From: Akkermansia muciniphila
Lineage (GTDB): Bacteria > Verrucomicrobiota > Verrucomicrobiia > Limisphaerales > UBA9464
Reading direction: 5' to 3'
DNA length: 64,000 nt
Assembly (NCBI GenBank): GCA_945898055.1
Contig: CAMDGV010000004.1
Coordinates: 62,001 to 126,000 of the forward strand
Each line of letters starts with the position of its first letter. Position 1 is the stretch's first letter. Positions 13,860-24,193 of this stretch are shown piece after piece. The translations under genes and the position numbers were made by a program. The notes under the pieces were generated by a model. It did not search any database, was not told the origin of the DNA, and saw only the letters and a list, made by a program, of their open reading frames with translations.

Positions 13860-13884
13860 GGTGGATAAAGGTCGGAAAGGGGAC

Positions 13885-15390
13885 TTAAGTGACGTTAAGT
13901 TCCTTACGAATGGCGAATTTGTCGATCCGTTTTCTTAAAGTCGCGCGAGTGATTCCCAGCATCCGAGCTGCTTGAACCTGATTTCCCTGAGTTTCTTTGA
14001 GTGCTTCGATCACCAGTTCGCGCTCGATGGCAGGGATTATTTTAAAATCTGAATGGGACTGCGCCCAGCGGAAAAGCCATCGAGAGACTTCAGTAAGATC
14101 GAGAGGAACTCCAACTGACGCAGTAATCGGTTGCCGAATAGGTGCGTTAGAGAGGCTAGGAGCCTGAATTTCCGTTGGAGGCAGGGCAGTCGACGCCGGT
14201 GAAGTCGTAATCCGAGAAGGGTTGTTGTGTAAAATGTCGAGAGGAAGATCGCTCGGTAGAATGGCCGGGCTCTTGGCGACAACGACGGCTCGGCGCAGGC
14301 AGTTTTCTAATTCGCGGACATTGCCCGGCCAATTAAAATTCTCCAAGGCCACAAGGGTCGATTGGCTAATCGATTTTTGGCCTCCAGAAGTGGATCCAAT
14401 TTTCCGAAGAAAATAGTCAACGAGAAGAGGAATATCACCGCGACGTTGCCGGAGTGGCGGCAAAGGAATACGAACCACGTTCAGCCTGTAAAAAAGATCT
14501 TCACGAAATTCTTTACGAGCTACCGCTTCTTCGAGGTGTTTATTAGTGGCGGCGATAATACGAACGTCTACCTGAACTGGGGTATTACCGCCCACCCGCT
14601 CGAACGATCCATTCTGGAGGACACGCAAAATCTTCGTTTGAGTGGCAGGAGACATATCACCGATTTCATCGAGAAAAAGAGTGCCCCGATTACATTGTTC
14701 AAAACGACCAATGCGCTGAGACGTCGCACCGGTAAAGGCACCTCGTTCGTGGCCGAAGAGGTCACTTTCGAGGAGATTTTCAGGAATGGCCGCACAATTA
14801 ATCGCCACGAAAGGTTCCTTGGCTCGGCGACTATTTTGGTAAATGGCGCGTGCCACCAATTCTTTGCCTGTGCCGCTTTCGCCCGTGATCAAGGCTGTGG
14901 CGTCCGATGTCGCCAACTGGCCTATTAGTTTGAAGACTTCCTGCATTGATTCGCTGCGGCCAATGACCCCGAGATCGTAGTCCTGTTGTTCCAACTGGGG
15001 TTGAACCACGACGACCTGACTCATATCCCTCGCCGCCCTTAAAGCGTCCTCAACCAATTGCTTGAGTCGCGGAACATCGAAGGGTTTGAGTAGGTAATCA
15101 TAAGCCCCCAGTTTCATCGCTTCGATCGCCGTCTGGGTGGTGCCGTAGGCGGTCATGAGAATCACCGGCAGCTTGGGATCCATCTGCCGGATACGCCGCA
15201 AGGTCTCGAGTCCGTTCAATCCAGCCATGCGGATATCGCTCAGCACCAAATTTGGCTGGATGCGAGGAATCATTTTGAGAGCTTCCTCGCCACTGGAGGC
15301 AGTGTGTAGTTCTAGATCTGGCGAATTGAAAATACGACGAAACGAGTATTGCACGTCAACCTCGTCATCTATCAGAAGAACTTTATCCAT
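13885..15390 (-). CDS. Sigma-54-dependent response regulator (NtrC family)
   Basis: 501 residues in three domains. Receiver domain about 1-120 with acidic pocket D8-D9, phospho-acceptor D52 (LVLSDIRM), T80 and K102. AAA+ domain about 140-375 with Walker A GESGTGKE at 170-177, the sigma-54 loop GAFTGA at 217-222, and DEIGDMSPATQTKILRVLQN. C-terminal Fis-type helix-turn-helix (EALKETQGNQVQAARMLGIT, RATLRKRIDKF). It activates RpoN promoters after phosphorylation. No sensor kinase gene is in the window, so the signal is unknown. A Ser/Pro/Thr-rich linker of ~50 residues precedes the DNA-binding domain. Confidence 0.95.
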   Translation of the reverse strand: MDKVLLIDDEVDVQYSFRRIFNSPDLELHTASSGEEALKMIPRIQPNLVLSDIRMAGLNGLETLRRIRQMDPKLPVILMTAYGTTQTAIEAMKLGAYDYLLKPFDVPRLKQLVEDALRAARDMSQVVVVQPQLEQQDYDLGVIGRSESMQEVFKLIGQLATSDATALITGESGTGKELVARAIYQNSRRAKEPFVAINCAAIPENLLESDLFGHERGAFTGATSQRIGRFEQCNRGTLFLDEIGDMSPATQTKILRVLQNGSFERVGGNTPVQVDVRIIAATNKHLEEAVARKEFREDLFYRLNVVRIPLPPLRQRRGDIPLLVDYFLRKIGSTSGGQKSISQSTLVALENFNWPGNVRELENCLRRAVVVAKSPAILPSDLPLDILHNNPSRITTSPASTALPPTEIQAPSLSNAPIRQPITASVGVPLDLTEVSRWLFRWAQSHSDFKIIPAIERELVIEALKETQGNQVQAARMLGITRATLRKRIDKFAIRKELNVT

Positions 15391-15724
15391 CGAAGGCCCT
15401 CAGGCTAAAGGGCTTGCCCTAGGATGCAATCCACGGATCGACCAAATCACAATCGACCAAATCACAGTTGACTAGACGGGTAGCGGTCGATGGAAACAAA
15501 GCTAGAGTTCCCCTTCTCTCCGTGACTTTTCCAACTCACCGGCTCAGCCATCGCAGGGCTGCATCAATTCATACTATTAACAGTACGTGCATCCCATTGT
15601 GAGGGCCGAAACTTTTGTGGATCCCAAAATCGTCCGAGCCACTGCTTATAGAGCCAGCGGTTGGCCTCCTCGACTATTTTGAGTCGTTAAAAGATTGGCG
15701 TCAGTCGATCGGCAGACGGCCTAG
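15391..15724. other. Intergenic, no feature recognised
   Basis: This stretch lies upstream of the response-regulator gene. I see no open frame with protein-like composition, no tRNA and no strong terminator. It contains the near-duplicated short sequence AATCGACCAAATCACA, AATCACAGTTGACTA around 15440-15474, probably incidental. Confidence 0.4.
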
Positions 15725-15928
15725 CTTGGTGACGGTGATGGCGACGGTCGCAGCGACGTTCAGGCGTTATTGGATTGGATAAAGAATCGTCCCTGCTGTA
15801 GCCAAAATGCTGAACAGAATTTGCAGAACGCAATCAATGGGCTCAACTCTGCGTTGGGGATTGCCCAAACTATTGCAAACAACGACGAGGCGGCTATGGA
15901 TTATTGGAACGCTGCCGCGCGAAAGTGA
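15725..15928 (+). pseudogene. Fragment with EF-hand-like Asp-Gly repeat
   Basis: In one forward frame, directly after a TAG at 15722-15724, the sequence reads LGDGDGDGRSDVQALLDWIK, then NRPCCSQNAEQNLQNAINGL, then NSALGIAQTIANNDEAAMDY and WNAAARK before TGA. The composition is protein-like, and the DGDGDGxSD start resembles a calcium-binding loop as in dockerin or EF-hand tails of exported proteins. There is no start codon and the upstream frame is closed, so it is taken as the leftover C-terminus of a lost gene. Confidence 0.4.
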
Positions 15929-16109: not shown

Positions 16110-16118
16110 TTTTACGGT

Positions 16119-16379
16119 TCAGGCGGCAGAACTCGCTGAGGCTGGCAGCGTGCAGAGCACGGGAACGAAGGCCGGACTATTTTTGGAGGCGATGAAATGG
16201 GTTGGCTGCGGTGACTGGCTTGGCTGAGTGATCCGCAGCCAGCGATCCATCGAAAGAGGATGAACACCCACTCTCGCAGCAAACTCAGTCTTCGAGAGTC
16301 CCGAGCGTTTAAATTCAGCGATCCGCAGTTGGATTTCAGCAAGACCACGACGCTTCCGAGACAGTACCATTGTGTTCAT
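16119..16379 (-). pseudogene. Truncated IS66-type TnpA (orf1)
   Basis: 86 residues. The N-terminal half LAEIQLRIAEFKRSGLSKTE, then FAARVGVHPLSMDRWLR, is the helix-turn-helix of IS66 accessory protein TnpA in Verrucomicrobia and Proteobacteria. After about residue 60 (PAFVPVLCTLPASASSAA) the family sequence stops and the frame ends 10 bp from box A. No tnpB, tnpC or terminal repeats are found around it. It is an inert relic. Confidence 0.6.
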
Positions 16380-16472
16380 CCGCGCAGGCTAAACCCAAGT
16401 AGGACGAATTAGGAACCATGGGCTTGGGCGTACGCTTACTCTGGTTAAGCGCTTGGTCGCATTGCGAATAAC

Positions 16473-16625: not shown

Positions 16626-16655
16626 GCAGGAAAATGGGTCAGTTCTTGATATTGG

Positions 16656-17158
16656 CTACTCCCCGCCCAGCTTCCTCCGGCGATCCAAGAGAGGGTTCAG
16701 AGAATCGCGCATGCCCATCGCCAAACGCTCAGCGATCCACCCCACCGTCACCGTCGTCTCCGCCCGACAGCGCGCCGCCAAAGCCAACTTCACTGAGTTC
16801 CCCTTGGGCCGAGTTTTGAGAGCAGCTTCCTGCCCCCGCCCCCGCTTCAACTCCTCCGCGATGATTCGTTCCGCCAGCGCCTCCGCCGGTTGAAGCGACT
16901 CGTGTCAGTGCTCAGCAACCATTTCATCTCGGCGACCCGATGGGTCTGCGGCGTCTCGACCACCCACTGAAAATGATTCGGCCTGAGGACAGAGGCGTGA
17001 ACCTGCCAGCCCGTCTTGGCGCAAACCTCGCCCAGCGTCTCAACGAAGCGCTGGCGATCCGCAGCATCCCTGAAGATCCGTTCGCGCCGGTCACCGCGAT
17101 TCATGACGTGATCAATCGCGCCAGCCTACTCGACTCTCAACTGGCGGGCCCTGCTGTG
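16656..17158 (-). pseudogene. REP-associated tyrosine transposase (RAYT/Y1-Tnp) remnant
   Basis: The minus strand still reads ARQLRVE, a TAG at 17126-17128 where the family has Tyr, then AGAIDHVMNRGDRRERIFRD. Next come CAKTGWQVHASVLRPNHFQW and VVETPQTHRVAEMKWLL. The HUH metal motif is HFQ instead of HFH. After TSRFN the central part with the catalytic Tyr region is deleted. The sequence resumes, in another frame, with the C-terminal PAEALAERIIAEELKRGRGQ, then LKTRPKGNSVKLALA and TTVTVGWIAERLAMG. So three defects are visible: a nonsense codon, a motif change and an internal deletion with frameshift. RAYTs normally move REP palindromes. Confidence 0.8.
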
Positions 17159-17409
17159 AGAGGGGCTTTGGCCGCTTCACATGTTAAGATTAAGAACTGA
17201 CTCTTTGATCGGAGAACACGGTCCAATCGCAATCATGCCAGCATTATTATCAAAGAAACCGATGACTAAAGACACTGGGAGGTTCCCCGCTGTTTTCAGG
17301 TGATCGCTTACTAACTTTCTATTCGTAGCCACGACGAAAGATTTAGAACTTAATTCTCCACGCATTAAATTCATAGTGGCGAGATTATTTGGACCTTGTA
17401 CGGTTAAGA

Positions 17410-18165
17410 ATGAAACCGACACCCGAACAGCGCCTCGCCGTGCGACTACCACCACATGAACTTCCTGTCATGCAGCAGCGTTGGGCAGGGTTGTTATTTC
17501 TTCATTGGCCAGTCGACCCGGCGCTGATTGCCGCCCGATTGCCCGCGGGCCTTCACGTGGATACGTTTGACGGAAAAGCATGGCTGGGTTTGGTGCCATT
17601 TTTCATGGAACGAGTCCGTCCCGCAAATCTACCCGCACTGCCGTGGCTCTCGTGGTTTCACGAACTCAACGTGCGTACTTATGTCCACGACGAAATGGGG
17701 AACCCTGGAGTTTGGTTTTTCTCGCTAGAGTGTGATCAACCGGTTGCCGTGGAGATCGCTAGACGAGGGTTTCACTTGCCTTATCAGCATGCCAGCATGC
17801 GAAGCACGAAATCCTCAGGACGCATCGACTTCAGCAGCCAAAGAAAAGTACTTGGAACGGCTTGTTCGAAATTTGAATATGCCACTCCAAAAATTACCAG
17901 ACCCGCAGAAATTGGTTCGCTCAATTGGTTTCTCGTCGAACGTTATCTGTTGTTTTCCTCTCGTCCTTCGGGGCAAATTTTTCGTGGGCAAGTTCATCAC
18001 TTACCTTATCAAATTTCACCTGCCGATTGCAGTCATTGGTCGACCGAACCACTCCGACTCGATGGTTTCTCTGAACCCACCGAAGCTCCAGCCTCCATGC
18101 TGGTCGCTGCCCCGGTCGACGTTCAAATTTTCTCTCTAAAGCCCCTGCGCTCGGCTTCCACTTGA
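17410..18165 (+). CDS. DUF2071 (YqjF-like) protein
   Basis: ATG at 17410 is preferred over the in-frame TTG at 17389. 251 residues; the start RWAGLLFLHWPVDPALIAAR, LPAGLHVDTFDGKAWLGLVP and FHELNVRTYVHDEMGNPGVW are the hallmarks of DUF2071/YqjF proteins. The fold is related to acetoacetate decarboxylase; the bacterial role is unknown. It stands alone, with the 3' neighbour on the opposite strand. The 251 bp between the RAYT relic and this gene hold nothing recognised, and neither do the 288 bp after it. Confidence 0.85.
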   Translation: MKPTPEQRLAVRLPPHELPVMQQRWAGLLFLHWPVDPALIAARLPAGLHVDTFDGKAWLGLVPFFMERVRPANLPALPWLSWFHELNVRTYVHDEMGNPGVWFFSLECDQPVAVEIARRGFHLPYQHASMRSTKSSGRIDFSSQRKVLGTACSKFEYATPKITRPAEIGSLNWFLVERYLLFSSRPSGQIFRGQVHHLPYQISPADCSHWSTEPLRLDGFSEPTEAPASMLVAAPVDVQIFSLKPLRSAST

Positions 18166-18453
18166 TATTGCAACCACTGCTTGGATCGGAACGACTGGGT
18201 GGCGCGTGACCCTCTGGAGATAATTGGTATAGATCATTGGTACGGGGTTACCTCTGGTCCCTCAACCGCACACTATCGTTTCCACACTCTCTCCGACCTG
18301 CGGGAAGGTCTATCTATTGCTCCTTTTTTGGCGACTTACCCCCTATACCCTTGCTCAACCTGCCCCAAAACCACGCTAGAAGTGCTGCAGTCGCTACCAA
18401 GCCCTACAAAATCCTCCTGGGAACCACTCCCCTCTCCGTCGAAAACGCAGTCC

Positions 18454-19308
18454 CTATTTTAAAATGCTATTTCTCAACTTTTCTTCTAACAACGCTAGTT
18501 TTTCATTAGCGGTTCTCAATCGTTTCGCTAAAATGCAAGCCACGATATTACCCGGATGATCTTGTCCATCAGACCGTTTATCTAAAAGATCAGCGGCCCG
18601 AAAACCAAGAAGCTGACAGCGGCCCTTAGCTGCTGCTGAAGCGAGTCTTGGACTATTCTGTATAACTCCCATTTCCCCGAACACGCCGCCTGGTTCCACT
18701 GTTTCAATCTCAGCACTGAGACCGTTTGACTCACGAGTAATAATAACTTTACCACTTCGAACGACAAAAAACTTATCGCTCGCTTCTCCCTGACGAAATA
18801 TGACTTGTCCATCAGCAAACTCGACTGTTGCTTTACGGATATCTGCATTTACCATTTCCGTTCGGATATAAGACCCTATAAATCGGCCCACTATTCCAAA
18901 ACCAACTCCTGTGGCCACCGCTAGACAATTGGTGGTTAAATCACCTTTTAAATCCATGGTCCTGCCGAACATGGGTTGTAGCATTTCTAAACCGGCACTT
19001 AACCCAGCCACACCTATAATACCGAAGGGCCATAACTTGGGCTGTAACCCCATAATTAAAAGCATTCCCAAAAGTGTGTAGCCTACAAAATGCACAATTT
19101 TATCCGCTCCAACAGCGACTCCTTTCGGGGCCATCAAACTACCAAGAACCGCACATATCATTCCAGCTAGCGACAAAACGATCATCACGTTTCGGAGATG
19201 GGGCGGAATATCTAAATAAGGTGTTTTATATTTTCTAACAACCGAATTTTCCGAATCCGACTTTTTTGATTTCACTCCGACAATAGATCCCTGACTATTT
19301 GAATTCAT
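18454..19308 (-). CDS. Fusion of a VanZ-like membrane domain and a cyclic nucleotide-binding domain
   Basis: 284 residues. About 40 polar N-terminal residues precede four probable membrane segments (VMIVLSLAGMICAVLGSLM; VHFVGYTLLGMLLIMGL; FGIIGVAGLSAGLEM; LAVATGVGFGIVGRFIG). The pattern DKIVHFVGY, then GLEMLQPMFGR and DLTTNCLAVATG fits VanZ-like domains. Residues ~160-265 are a CRP-type nucleotide-binding domain: FADGQVIFRQGEASDKFFVV, RSGKVIITRE, and the phosphate-cassette region GGVFGEMGVIQNSPRLAS with Glu and Arg kept. The C-terminus is a short charged helix (TANEKLALLEEKLRN). There is no DNA-binding domain. Likely a cyclic-nucleotide-responsive membrane protein. Its DNA is AT-richer than the neighbours. 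Confidence 0.75.
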   Translation of the reverse strand: MNSNSQGSIVGVKSKKSDSENSVVRKYKTPYLDIPPHLRNVMIVLSLAGMICAVLGSLMAPKGVAVGADKIVHFVGYTLLGMLLIMGLQPKLWPFGIIGVAGLSAGLEMLQPMFGRTMDLKGDLTTNCLAVATGVGFGIVGRFIGSYIRTEMVNADIRKATVEFADGQVIFRQGEASDKFFVVRSGKVIITRESNGLSAEIETVEPGGVFGEMGVIQNSPRLASAAAKGRCQLLGFRAADLLDKRSDGQDHPGNIVACILAKRLRTANEKLALLEEKLRNSILK

Positions 19309-19394
19309 TTTAATATCTAATGTAGCTTAGTAACTGTTAAAACAGAGAGGTCTAATTTTAAATTAACTTAATAATGCTACCTCTAATCTAATAC

Positions 19395-19410
19395 GAAAGA
19401 TGCATCTTTC
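19395..19410. promoter_or_regulatory. Perfect 16-bp palindrome upstream of the VanZ/CNB gene
   Basis: GAAAGATGCATCTTTC is a perfect palindrome, 87 bp upstream of the start of the VanZ/cNMP-binding gene, in AT-rich intergenic DNA. Its position suits an operator for that gene. The binding factor is unknown. Confidence 0.45.
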
Positions 19411-19554
19411 CACAAGAAAAATTTAAATACTTAGCTCCCACGTCGAGTTTAAAAGAATGAGTTAATTTATCTAAATTCTGAATTTAATCAGGCTCATCTC
19501 AATGGCTCGCGAATCCTCAGTCTCTCAATCCTAGCTAATATCAAGTGGCCTCGG

Positions 19555-20730
19555 TCACCTCGGCTCCGGCTTGGACTCCAAAGTGATCACCAAAGCATTA
19601 CCCGTGGGACGTTCCGCCCGTTCACATGGATTATTAAGCACTTGTCCCAACACCCACAAAGTCGAAGACCCGCCACCGTCGAGGTTCAGGGCCTCGGTAC
19701 AACCCAAATCTAAAAGATACCGAGTTAACTCGGATAACGTCATCCCGACAGAAACCGAAGGTTGACGTCCATCTACCTGCATCAAGAAAAGCATTTCTTT
19801 ATTCCAACCAAGAGCACTCCGCGGATGCCGTACTTCCCCACTTCCTAACTCTGTTGAGCGCCCGCCACGAATCAGTGCAGGCCCCCCTCCAATGGCGGTC
19901 CGTGCGCCCTTCAAATTAGGAAGAGTCGAGGAATCGATCATCAAAGTACTCCCCACCCTGAGTTGCTTATCCTCGGCCCGCAGGTTGGAGGGCAGAACCA
20001 AGAGCATTCGTCCCTTTGCAATGCGGGATCTGCCGCCTTGGCCCACTTCGACCACACGAAAAGCGCGCCTCTCGCCCACCCTTAATCCCTCCACTTCTGG
20101 GTCTAGTGTCTCCAGTACAATTTCCGAGTCTGAGGAAGGCCGCGTCACCCCAACTGCCTCCTCTGTATACAAGACCGCCCGATCCTCGCGTTCCTCGTTC
20201 AAACCGAGGGGTGTTTGCGATCCATCCGGCCAAACCACGGCCAAGAGGGAGATCACGTTGGTCATATGGAACGAACCGTCTGGCTCAACCCAGAAACAGC
20301 TTTTCTCTGAGGGCATCGACACCAATCGTCCTTCAAAGATACACAGTCCTTCCGGGTCACCCACCCAGGCCCCAGAGCGAACAAAATAGTCGCCGTTAAT
20401 GGCTGCTACTGGGCGACCCCGTGACCTAGGAAAGCGGCGCACTTGTTCCGACACTGAGCTTGCCCCCAAGGCGTTGCCGCCACCGAGGGTCACATGCAAC
20501 TGCAGATCGACCCGAGAGCGGCGAATACGAACCATATGAATCGCCCACGGCCCTTCTGAGCGATCGTCCTGAAGATAAGTAAACGCATCGCTGAACCGAG
20601 GTTTCCGAAGGGTATTGGTGGTTTGGGCGGACAAACTCAGCGCCCCGAGTAACAGAGAAAAAAGTAAATACCCCAAGCAAACACCGCCCCCGCTGCCTGA
20701 AGGAGAGTTTGAAAAGTCACGCGTCTCCAT
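19555..20730 (-). CDS. Phosphodiester glycosidase (NAGPA/DUF2233 family), paralog 1
   Basis: 391 residues with an N-terminal membrane/signal segment (YLLFSLLLGALSLSAQ). The catalytic domain motifs are PVAAINGDYFVRSGAWVGDP, TAIGGGPALIRGG, RHPRSALGWN, and ALNLDGGGSSTLWV near the C-terminus. This family includes the human uncovering enzyme and bacterial enzymes hydrolysing GlcNAc-1-phosphodiesters, so a periplasmic role on cell-wall teichoic-like or glycan phosphodiesters is inferred. Its start overlaps the stop of paralog 2 by one base (TAATG), so translation is coupled; it is the last gene of the MoxR operon. Confidence 0.85.
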   Translation of the reverse strand: METRDFSNSPSGSGGGVCLGYLLFSLLLGALSLSAQTTNTLRKPRFSDAFTYLQDDRSEGPWAIHMVRIRRSRVDLQLHVTLGGGNALGASSVSEQVRRFPRSRGRPVAAINGDYFVRSGAWVGDPEGLCIFEGRLVSMPSEKSCFWVEPDGSFHMTNVISLLAVVWPDGSQTPLGLNEEREDRAVLYTEEAVGVTRPSSDSEIVLETLDPEVEGLRVGERRAFRVVEVGQGGRSRIAKGRMLLVLPSNLRAEDKQLRVGSTLMIDSSTLPNLKGARTAIGGGPALIRGGRSTELGSGEVRHPRSALGWNKEMLFLMQVDGRQPSVSVGMTLSELTRYLLDLGCTEALNLDGGGSSTLWVLGQVLNNPCERAERPTGNALVITLESKPEPR

Positions 20731-21878
20731 TAAAATCGTTCGGTTTTCTGCTCTGTTCCCGACTTAGGTTGAGCCCTTTCTACAACCATAAGACTGGTCG
20801 CAGTCTGACGTTCGTGACCGTAACAGGGACTATTTAAAATACGATTTCCAAGGAGTAGTTCCGTAGAACCACCCCCGTCCAAGTTCATCGCCTCGGTACA
20901 ACCCAACCCCTGAAAATAACCAGCTAACTCTGGCAAGGTCATTCCCACGGATAAACCTGGCTGCCGACCATCCACCACCACGAGAAACCAATACGACGAG
21001 TTCCACCCCAGAGCCGAGCGGGGATGACGCTCTCTCGATTTCACCACACGCATCGCTGTCGGTTGTCCACCCGACAACAAAGCGGGACCGCCCCCTAGAG
21101 CCGTCGTGACTCCGAGCAGAGAGGGATTTGTTGCGGTTGAAAGACGCACCTTGGCTCCCAACTTGATCGCAGGCGCCAAAGACGAGGAGGGTAGCAGCAG
21201 GAGTTGTTGCGCCGTAGGCCCTTCGGCCCTCGCCTCCATCCGACCCAACACCACACCAGAGAAAACTCCGCCTAGCTTCAAGGGCAACCCGGCACTGGGA
21301 TCTACCGATAGAATCCAACCTCTTCGAGAATCTCCGCGTAACGCCCCAGTCGCCGCCGTAGTGTAGACCACCGTCTCCGAACCGTCATAGTCGGCGTTCA
21401 AGACAAAGGTATCGGAAGCTTCAGGACCCACACGAACCGTAAAAAGATTGCGAACCATTCCAATTCTAGGGAGTCCATTAGTGTCCATCCAAAAGCAGTC
21501 TCGTTCAATCGGATTGCTAACCAACTGACCTTCGAACACAAACAATCCACGCGGATCGCCAGGCATTGGATCATTTTCGGTGGCATAAAAATCGCCATTA
21601 ATCGCGGCAACTACCCTACCTGCAAATTCAGGAATAAGAGAAATTTGTTCACTCAAGGTATTAAGACCGATGCGATCACGAAAGCCGAGTGAGGGCAAAA
21701 ACCGAAATTCTAGATGATCCCGATTGATACGCACGACATGAACCGACCACGGCTCGTTGAAAGTGTCATGAGCCTCGGCCACACCGGGGCGAACGATCTT
21801 AAACACAGTGGCCGCGACGATCTCCAAACCACCGGAGATAAATCCGAGCATGAAAACCAATCCCTTCACCCACTTCAT
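20730..21878 (-). CDS. Phosphodiester glycosidase (NAGPA/DUF2233 family), paralog 2
   Basis: ATG at 21878 is chosen because it forms an ATGA overlap with the stop of the upstream VWA protein and begins a clean signal peptide (KWVKGLVFMLGFISGGLEI). The longer frame from 21947 runs into that gene. The same motif set as paralog 1 is present: RVVAAINGDFYATENDPMPG, TTALGGGPALLSGG, RHPRSALGWNSSYWFLVVVD, MNLDGGGSTELLLG. The two neighbours share order and motifs and look like an old tandem duplication, but the DNA is well diverged. Periplasmic or outer-face enzyme is inferred. Confidence 0.85.
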   Translation of the reverse strand: MKWVKGLVFMLGFISGGLEIVAATVFKIVRPGVAEAHDTFNEPWSVHVVRINRDHLEFRFLPSLGFRDRIGLNTLSEQISLIPEFAGRVVAAINGDFYATENDPMPGDPRGLFVFEGQLVSNPIERDCFWMDTNGLPRIGMVRNLFTVRVGPEASDTFVLNADYDGSETVVYTTAATGALRGDSRRGWILSVDPSAGLPLKLGGVFSGVVLGRMEARAEGPTAQQLLLLPSSSLAPAIKLGAKVRLSTATNPSLLGVTTALGGGPALLSGGQPTAMRVVKSRERHPRSALGWNSSYWFLVVVDGRQPGLSVGMTLPELAGYFQGLGCTEAMNLDGGGSTELLLGNRILNSPCYGHERQTATSLMVVERAQPKSGTEQKTERF

Positions 21879-24193
21879 GCCAACCCCTTCCAGCGCCGAA
21901 GACTCCATTCCAAAGTCAAAAAACCGAGAATCAGTCCTAAAACCCAAGGCTTATCCCAAAGCGCTCTGCGATCAAACTCCACCGTGGGTGCTGGGATGTT
22001 TTTCCATAACGTCTTCAATCCAACGACCTCAGTATCCGTCAATTGATGAGCCATTCCGCCGCCAGCCGCAGCGATGCTTTCCACCAAAACAGGGCGTGCC
22101 CGCAAATCGACCATTTCTCGCTCGACCGTCTCGCCGACCAATAATTGTCGATCTTCTCCCAAGAGGTTGGTTTTGCCTTGGGCAACGGCGGTCACAATGA
22201 AGGCTCCCACTTGACGGAGCGGTATCTGCCCTTGATAAGCGTGCGTGGCTGGATCGTAGCGAGCGGTAGCCACCGCATTGCTCGAGATTCCATCGCCCAA
22301 ATAAAAGGTGACAGTAGCACCCGCGACTTCACCCAAGGAAATGTCTCGAACTTTGACCGAAGCCGCAATCGTATCACCGGGTGCTGCATAGCCCGTGCTT
22401 AATTCTAAAATAACCGGTTGATTCGTTTTACTGCTGCGACCCGCGGCCAACCACCGGACGGCGTTCACCCAGAAACCTCGATAATATCGAGAATCACAAT
22501 TCTCTTCACTGAGCCCCCAGTTCTTGTTGATCGGTTCGCCCCACAAAGTCTCAAATTCCTCCCCCCAAGCCCGCGTTGTATCCGAGGTAAAAGCCATACT
22601 CCGACCTCGTCCCACCTCCTGCACCGCCAAGACGACCGTCCCAACGCCACCGGTAAAAGGTTCATCGGTGGTGGCCAGAAGAGTGGCTCCAGGTTTCACT
22701 CGCTCCATTCGATTCAATCCCTTCAACGTTGGAAATTTCTCACCCCAAATCTTCGCGGTCTCAACTCGATTCGCTCCAAAAGCAACGAGGGGATGGGTCA
22801 ACGCGGCCCGCGGCACTTTCAACCGAAATTCGGTGCGATCAGAATCGTAAGCCCCTTCCATCGCCACCGGAATAATCCGATCGAGTACGGTCTTATGATA
22901 ACCACCACGACCAAAAGCAGAGTTGCCACCAATCATCACAAAACCGCCTCCAAATTCTTCAACCAGCCGGGCCATATTGGTCAATTGATCCCCGGAAAAG
23001 GATTCCCTTTTAATATCACTATGGATGACGACGTCATATTCGAGCAGTCCATGGAGCGTCTTTGGAAATCCCCGGGTTGGGTGCTCGACCGGATAGATCC
23101 GTTCGCCGGTTTGCTGATCCACATCTACGGTATTTAAATATTGGCCGTTACCACCAAATTGACGATAGAGGGTAGTCACCTTAATCCCTGGATCCGACTG
23201 CAACGCATCTTTTAAATACTTCCATTCTGGCTTGGGACTCGCATTATTTTGAGGCGTCCCTTCCATGTAAAGAACCCGCAGAGTGGGGTCAGTAACTTCC
23301 AACCCAAATTGACGGCGATTATTCGATGCCAACCACTCTCCTTCCAACGGCAAAACGGCTACTTCATAAATTTGAAACCCTCTTCCTCGAGGAGTGAACT
23401 CGATTTCCGTCCGCTGCGAAGGTCCAGTCAAGGTCACCTTCTGACTTGCCAAAACATCCTTCTCCCGTCGGACCACTACAACCACTGATCGCCCTTCAAA
23501 CCCTGGCGATCGAAGGATCACCGCCAACCGGGTAGGAGCTTCATTAGGAACCGCTCGCTTCACCTGTACATTCTCCACGATCACATCGCGCATCTCATTG
23601 GTCGTTCCGGTCAGGAGGGTGTGAACGGCTAGCCCACGTCGTTGCAAACGTCGCGCCGTTACCTCCGGGAGACCGGAAGCCGTTTCAATGCCGTCGCTTA
23701 CTAAAATCACGCCGGTCAAGGGTGAATCGCCGGGTGCCGACAGCATCGATTCTAATGCCCCTGCCAAGGCGCTGGAAGACCCTGTCGCGGCTAGGGCAAT
23801 CCCATTCGTTTCTAAAATAACCTTATCACTGAATCCGTAGCTCAGTAGATCGACGTCTGCGGGTTTAACTGCCTCAATGTTTTTAGCAATCCAAGCGCGA
23901 CCCGCCCCCAAACGACCGCCGGCAACATCCAAAGTAGCCATACTCTTCGAGGTATCGAATAACACAGCCAAACGCGCCTTATGATGCTGGGTGAACTTCT
24001 CCACCCACTGTGGATCCAGAAGACAGATAACCAGTGCGCCTACCACGGTGGCCCGAAGTAAAGTGGCCACGACTCGCGGCCATCCGCCCGATCGCCCTTT
24101 ACCGGTGGCGTAACTGGTAATAATCAGGATCAGAGCGGCCACTCCACCCGCAGCAATCCAGCGGAGATCGGGAAGGTAAGTGAATTGAGTCAT
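21875..24193 (-). CDS. Membrane-anchored VWA / glutamine amidotransferase-like protein
   Basis: 772 residues. Two N-terminal membrane segments (LRWIAAGGVAALILIITSYA; ATLLRATVVGALVICLL) are followed by a VWA-type domain with the metal-site motif DTSKS (LAVLFDTSKSMATLDV) and VILVSDGIETASGLPEVTAR. The middle part resembles the class I amidotransferase-like domain of such proteins (VVIHSDIKRESFSGDQLTNM, then ARLVEEFGGGFVMIGGNSAF). A last membrane segment (WVLGLILGFLTLEWSL) ends the protein. Typical partner of MoxR/DUF58 operons in PVC and Bacteroidota, presumably an envelope complex driven by the MoxR ATPase. Confidence 0.8.
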   Translation of the reverse strand: MTQFTYLPDLRWIAAGGVAALILIITSYATGKGRSGGWPRVVATLLRATVVGALVICLLDPQWVEKFTQHHKARLAVLFDTSKSMATLDVAGGRLGAGRAWIAKNIEAVKPADVDLLSYGFSDKVILETNGIALAATGSSSALAGALESMLSAPGDSPLTGVILVSDGIETASGLPEVTARRLQRRGLAVHTLLTGTTNEMRDVIVENVQVKRAVPNEAPTRLAVILRSPGFEGRSVVVVVRREKDVLASQKVTLTGPSQRTEIEFTPRGRGFQIYEVAVLPLEGEWLASNNRRQFGLEVTDPTLRVLYMEGTPQNNASPKPEWKYLKDALQSDPGIKVTTLYRQFGGNGQYLNTVDVDQQTGERIYPVEHPTRGFPKTLHGLLEYDVVIHSDIKRESFSGDQLTNMARLVEEFGGGFVMIGGNSAFGRGGYHKTVLDRIIPVAMEGAYDSDRTEFRLKVPRAALTHPLVAFGANRVETAKIWGEKFPTLKGLNRMERVKPGATLLATTDEPFTGGVGTVVLAVQEVGRGRSMAFTSDTTRAWGEEFETLWGEPINKNWGLSEENCDSRYYRGFWVNAVRWLAAGRSSKTNQPVILELSTGYAAPGDTIAASVKVRDISLGEVAGATVTFYLGDGISSNAVATARYDPATHAYQGQIPLRQVGAFIVTAVAQGKTNLLGEDRQLLVGETVEREMVDLRARPVLVESIAAAGGGMAHQLTDTEVVGLKTLWKNIPAPTVEFDRRALWDKPWVLGLILGFLTLEWSLRRWKGLA

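Follow-up and report, generated by a model that had tools for sequence, protein, structure and literature searches.

A VanZ-like membrane domain joined to a predicted cyclic-nucleotide sensor in an Akkermansia muciniphila genome

Results

We analysed a stretch of 64,000 nucleotides (hereafter, the window) from an Akkermansia muciniphila genome (assembly GCA_945898055.1, contig CAMDGV010000004.1, positions 62,001 to 126,000). On its minus strand, an open frame with an ATG start (18454..19308) encodes a 284-aa protein with a VanZ-like part followed by a cyclic-nucleotide-binding (cNMP) domain, both matched in Pfam; the protein features given below all lie on this strand. The VanZ-like part (residues 36-145; 18874..19203) has four predicted membrane helices, placed by hydropathy, a low-confidence structural model and a Pfam VanZ match at residues 64-137. 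The cNMP domain (residues 160-243; 18580..18831) was delimited with Pfam and by alignment to PKA regulatory subunits, and contains the phosphate-binding cassette GGVFGEMGVIQNSPRLASAAA, which spans residues 207-227 (18628..18690), includes E212 and R221 and was located by PDB alignment. At the place of the CRP C-helix, the low-confidence model puts a C-terminal helix (residues 252-283; 18460..18555).

The cNMP_binding match of the window protein was clear (residues 162-243, E = 5.4e-20, 71.6 bits, Pfam cut-off 27.5), and its VanZ match was below threshold (E = 2.1e-5, 25.6 bits, cut-off 30.1). NCBIfam gave sub-threshold matches only, chiefly to cNMP-containing families. VanZ scores were 20.2-20.9 bits in the three close relatives scanned, below the cut-off, and 35.4, 34.4 and 36.4 bits in three distant relatives scanned; because these distant proteins of the same build exceed the cut-off, we count the window protein as a probable VanZ member. 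The domain pair named in a preliminary description of this DNA, made from its letters and open frames, was right. So was its statement that the protein lacks a DNA-binding domain: no HTH family in Pfam matched the window protein, which does not carry the C-terminal HTH of CRP/FNR-type regulators.

The VanZ-cNMP gene is flanked by a DUF2071 gene on one side and two NAGPA-domain genes on the other. The DUF2071 gene (17389-18162; Pfam, E = 1.4e-66) is its neighbour. The NAGPA (phosphodiester glycosidase) genes are tandem paralogues (19558-20730 and 20733-21947; Pfam) with at least one relative in 18 of 19 genus genomes, many of which have two side by side. As the preliminary description had it, the VanZ-cNMP gene is AT-rich: its GC content is 43%, with 33% in the 246 bp upstream, compared with 54% for the window, and its GC3 is 0.356, compared with 0.49-0.57 in nine other window genes. 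GC3 in all 18 relatives described below is 0.58-0.92, far from that of the window gene. Searches at an E-value threshold of 1e-15 detected the gene in none of the further genomes examined from the genus (n = 18), the family (n = 17) and the order (n = 23), whose completeness was 57-98%.

Comparison with the closest sister genome (G394) bears on how the gene came to this site. The sister has 92% identical DNA from about position 19424 of the window rightwards and 88% identical DNA over about 13883-15750, the latter on a different contig; from about 15750 to about 19424, the two genomes have nothing in common beyond dispersed repeats. Because repeats or foreign DNA interrupt both sister contigs at these points, an insertion is likely but not proven, and we rejected the sister as a proven empty site for the same reason. 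Recent acquisition of the stretch that holds the VanZ-cNMP and DUF2071 genes is likely. No other genus genome matches the DUF2071 stretch among the matches listed, and joint arrival of the two genes is therefore possible. Two dispersed, multi-copy repeats lie at 16112-16443 and 16627-17212, and each recurs many times, at about 80-96% identity, here and in other genus genomes; the second overlaps a short open frame (16847-17104, minus strand) that matches Y1/REP-associated transposases in Pfam and NCBIfam.

Upstream of the VanZ-cNMP gene, 86 bp from the start codon, the perfect 16-bp palindrome GAAAGATGCATCTTTC (19395..19410) noted in the preliminary description was confirmed, but a role as a functional operator is not supported. 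The window contains two perfect 16-bp palindromes, compared with about 0.97 expected from base composition; for the 246-bp upstream stretch alone about 0.009 are expected, a figure for a stretch that was chosen because a palindrome had been seen in it. With up to two mismatches allowed, GAAAGATGCATCTTTC has a single copy in the 4.63-Mb genome and is thus not a regulon site. It also falls outside the DNA shared with the sister, which begins just beyond it at about 19424. Promoter-like sites in 18300-19600 number four, compared with 2.4 (s.d. 1.6) in shuffles. On these grounds we rejected the operator; the palindrome looks like a chance occurrence.

A search for proteins with the same domain pair, which the preliminary description had proposed, yielded 18 full-length relatives with both domains. 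Across the phylum (387 genomes, the window's own included), four other genomes matched both domains among the matches listed (G227, G247, G159 and G023); the remaining listed matches covered the cNMP part, a few of them extending beyond it. For class-level searches we used a profile of 10 sequences, the window protein included. Of 240 genomes in the class of G227, nine have both domains (eight of the family of G227, plus G023) and four have the cNMP part only; that family numbers eight carriers in 29 genomes. In the window's own class (286 genomes), the fusions belong to one family, f137, with nine full-length proteins and two partial ones at contig edges, together in 11 of the 15 f137 genomes listed with any match. 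The f137 proteins are 55-62% identical to the window protein over its whole length (n = 9), and the other relatives 25-29%. Our alignment of 19 sequences comprises the window protein, the nine full-length f137 (same-class) proteins, the eight from the family of G227 and that of G023 (together, the other-class relatives); the two partial proteins were left out.

Three further candidates (G126, G020 and G320), whose matches extended past the cNMP part or lay in long frames, were rejected as VanZ fusions, two being protein kinase-cNMP proteins and one a cNMP-HTH regulator. Single bacterial chains in which a cNMP domain comes after a protein kinase domain were seen in two genomes of the phylum (L145:567-2036 and L147:1154-2671). 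Mobile carriage on plasmids or viral contigs was likewise rejected: the plasmid search gave two records only, both partial (30-41% of the query covered), and the viral contigs searched held no relative. A scan of public genomes returned one partial locus, restricted to the cNMP region, in an Azospirillum MAG.

In f137, the fusion gene directly follows what we take to be an argH-like gene in 9/9 genomes, mostly with a presumed mutY-like gene next, and in the family of G227 a presumed mutL-like gene is two genes away in all four loci shown; these names were read off the sequences. The neighbourhoods, including that of the window gene, give no link to the envelope or to any other pathway. Homology to VanZ could suggest a glycopeptide-resistance-type protein with an incidental sensor, but there is no van-type gene among the seven other window genes scanned with Pfam, the neighbourhoods of the relatives, as read, are not of van type, and we consider this explanation very improbable.

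We next consider the membrane part. In the hydropathy profile of the window protein, the first segment is strong, and those near residues 80, 101 and 137 are weaker. A single-sequence AlphaFold2 model has helices at residues 36-58, 68-88, 90-114 and 123-157, then strands, then the helix at 252-283; with a mean pLDDT of 44.5, only its helix pattern was used, and cautiously. Four candidate core helices are seen by hydropathy and in the model, whose confidence is too low to show a pocket. We assigned the fourth membrane helix to 123-about 145, which the model extends to residue 157.

Along these helices, the alignment revealed a set of invariant residues. S57, D69, K70, H73, F74, E108, Q111, G115, R116, D123, N127, G134, G138 and R142 are identical in 19/19 sequences, and D119 is kept in 18/19. 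The polar ones among them that form the predicted active site (18928..19104) are D69, K70 and H73 in helix 2, E108 and Q111 in helix 3, and D119, D123 and N127 in helix 4. According to the lipocone study of Burroughs, Nicastro and Aravind (eLife 2025, PMC12419801), the ancestral lipocone active site consists of a helix-2 His, a helix-3 Glu and a helix-4 Asp, together with a polar residue at the helix-3 end or close to it, another after the helix-4 Asp, and a late Gly in helix 4. The window protein matches this pattern with H73, E108, D123, Q111, N127 and G134/G138. Its place among the VanZ families of that study is less clear-cut. A conserved helix-2 Asn and a helix-4 DxDDxxxN motif mark VanZ-1 proteins; the Asn is missing from the window protein, and its helix-4 motif, D119xxxD123xxxN127 (DxxDxxxN in distant relatives), is only a partial fit. 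The marks of VanZ-2 proteins are a helix-2 RKxxH and a helix-4 DxxxD; the window protein partly fits with DKxxH and DxxxD, yet has ExxQ in helix 3, which is described there as a VanZ-1/Skillet mark.

The likely orientation of these residues follows from charge. By the positive-inside rule, basic flanks mark the cytoplasmic side of a membrane protein. As read from its sequence, the window protein has many Lys and Arg residues in the tail that precedes helix 1 and a basic stretch behind helix 4; with four helices, this suggests a topology with both termini inside. The cNMP sensor would then be cytoplasmic and the conserved polar residues would sit at the opposite membrane face; that is, if the N-terminus is inside, they should lie at helix ends facing away from the cytoplasm. 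The lipocone study (PMC12419801) predicts outer-leaflet head groups as targets and expects such a placement for them. The statement in the preliminary description that VanZ-like domains have no clear function is out of date at the level of prediction, since that study predicts a lipid head-group enzyme.

The same source raises a reverse direction of signalling for VanZ-HTH and VanZ-RHH fusions, by which the VanZ part here would sense an envelope lipid and the cytoplasmic domain would be the output. Two features argue against this: Pfam finds neither an HTH nor another output domain after the cNMP domain of the window protein, and the full conservation of catalytic-type residues argues for an enzyme. 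We therefore hold a sensory VanZ part to be unlikely.

A PDB search paired the cNMP part with regulatory subunits of cAMP-dependent kinases (E about 2e-17). In this alignment, Glu and Arg of the cassette FGEMGVIQNSPRLASAAA fall on Glu and Arg of the kinase-subunit cassettes. These residues, E212 and R221, are those expected to hold the cyclic phosphate. The window protein has both, in addition to passing the cNMP_binding cut-off. At position 212, the window protein and 9/9 f137 proteins have Glu, and 9/9 other-class relatives have Val or Ile; at position 221, the former have Arg and the latter Gln or Leu. By alignment, the family therefore has two branches, one (with the window protein) whose predicted nucleotide site is intact, the other having lost it while keeping the predicted membrane site. 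Since the other-class relatives keep the membrane site and lose both cassette residues, nucleotide control appears dispensable for the membrane part in general.

We also looked at class III cyclases. The window genome has three PF00211 matches above the cut-off, on contigs C53, C37 and C8, all distinct from the contig of the window (C4), and there are 2-6 class III cyclase matches per genome in 10/10 genomes with an intact cassette. A class III cyclase is present in 10/10 intact-branch and 2/9 other-branch genomes (P = 0.0007, Fisher exact test), a contrast of two lineages. In the family of G227, cyclases occur in 1/8 carriers and 3/21 non-carriers. We therefore do not count the cyclases as separate evidence that the protein binds a ligand: their presence is a lineage trait, the family of G227 mostly having no cyclase regardless of carriage. 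Given this two-lineage contrast and the rarity in carriers and non-carriers alike, the pattern is consistent with nucleotide binding but is not independent proof of it. The direct cyclic-nucleotide control proposed in the preliminary description is plausible for the window protein, which keeps E212 and R221 in a genome with three class III cyclase genes; as a property of the whole family it does not hold.

A cyclic nucleotide could also act in defence, as in Pycsar systems, with a phage-induced signal activating a membrane-damaging VanZ part. Like Pycsar effectors, the window protein joins a cNMP domain to a putative effector domain, and PADLOC models matched it weakly (PycC, E = 2.2e-5; TIR effectors, E = 3.1e-5 and 0.0014; PycTIR, E = 0.0016); the gene is also patchily distributed, AT-rich and close to dispersed mobile repeats. 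However, the PADLOC matches are confined to the cNMP region, the protein has no TIR domain, its membrane part is VanZ-like, and no cyclase lies beside the gene, the three in the genome being on other contigs. Nor is there a cyclase among the nameable genes in the neighbourhoods of relatives, and the stable position behind the argH-like gene in 9/9 f137 genomes is unlike that of a defence island. An anti-phage role is, in our estimate, quite unlikely.

All nine full-length f137 proteins are longer than the window protein, with about 150 more residues at the C-terminal end, and part of this extension is conserved. The conserved part is about 125 residues long (loci L085-L093), with no Pfam match at cut-off and no recognition in the PDB. 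Among the seven of the nine f137 C-terminal stretches that were given to Pfam, FHA matched four (best E = 0.0041); in one f137 protein it scored 14.8 bits (cut-off 20.7). A PDB search of the seven stretches gave two hits, neither of them an FHA chain. The third domain may be FHA-like, which is unproven; both cNMP and FHA domains are among the VanZ-1 fusions listed in PMC12419801. A profile of the nine f137 C-termini found no such tail or remnant in the window protein or in six frames of the window, and we rejected the idea that an FHA-like tail had been lost from the downstream end of this gene.

These extensions and the other-class relatives raise the possibility that the cNMP domain is a ligand-independent dimerization or docking module, that the VanZ part is constitutive and that the FHA-like domain performs recruitment in same-class proteins. 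In its favour, 9/9 other-class relatives retain a cNMP domain without E212 and R221, and 9/9 full-length same-class relatives carry the third domain after it. Set against this are the retention of both residues in 10/10 proteins of the window's clade, the class III cyclases in all ten of its genomes and the weakness of the FHA match. We regard a docking module as possible, though rather unlikely.

Discussion

VanZ-cNMP fusions, and the idea that nucleotides regulate VanZ through the fused cNMP domain, were already published in 2025 (Burroughs, Nicastro and Aravind, PMC12419801). The window gene is therefore not a new kind but a further example of that pairing. Among the matches listed, this study was the only literature that linked VanZ domains with cyclic nucleotides; the papers listed for VanZ-like membrane function are mostly on streptococci and resistance. 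Like the published VanZ-1/cNMPBD lipocone fusions, the window protein carries a predicted VanZ-type four-helix domain and a predicted cytoplasmic cNMP domain on one chain, with a conserved His/Glu/Asp site and predicted nucleotide control. It differs from them in helix 2, with DKxxH in place of the VanZ-1 Asn, and in helix 4, with DxxxDxxxN in place of the full DxDDxxxN. Our analysis adds to this an invariant membrane site, an FHA-like extension and a division of the family into two branches by their sensor sites.

The sensor can be compared with PKA regulatory subunits and the cNMP domains of the CRP family. They have in common the fold and a phosphate-binding cassette with Glu and Arg. The window protein differs in that it has no kinase-inhibiting or DNA-binding part and is joined to a membrane domain; it also has Leu at position 222, which is Ser or Ala in the same-class relatives.

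Our preferred reading, in which we place somewhat less than even confidence, is that the protein is an enzyme acting on lipid head groups in the outer leaflet, and that a cyclic nucleotide in the cytoplasm gates it across the membrane. The analysis itself shows the domain order, the conserved residues, the intact binding cassette and the cyclase genes in the same genome. Weighing against this reading are the low confidence of the structural model, neighbourhoods that offer no envelope link, the loss of both cassette residues in the other-class relatives and the lineage character of the cyclase association. Under the predicted topology, an inner-membrane lipocone protein would use its four helices to set H73, E108, Q111, D123 and N127 at the outer membrane face. 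There, the polar site may cleave or exchange a lipid head group attached through phosphate; the presumed substrate would most likely be a head group on an undecaprenyl-linked envelope precursor. The cytoplasmic C-terminal cNMP domain would bind a purine cyclic nucleotide, the ligand probably being cAMP, through E212 and R221. A change in conformation or dimer state would then pass via helix 4 and the following linker helix and switch the membrane site, with control running in the inferred direction from sensor to enzyme.

A fuller version also covers the relatives. According to it, a cyclic nucleotide directly gates, via one membrane helix, an enzyme acting on lipid-linked precursors in the outer leaflet; one lineage has gained an FHA-like recruiting domain and another has lost the ligand site, leaving the enzyme constitutive or rewired. 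This fuller account is possible, and we put it forward with considerable reserve.

For the widespread VanZ-type proteins, activity remains a prediction. The fused domain is soluble and testable for ligand binding, and so offers a handle: if cAMP binding alters membrane behaviour, VanZ activity becomes assayable. Clades with and without the ligand-binding residues, on the same predicted membrane site, form a natural control pair. If the proposed gating is true, this protein would be a one-protein second-messenger switch for envelope synthesis.
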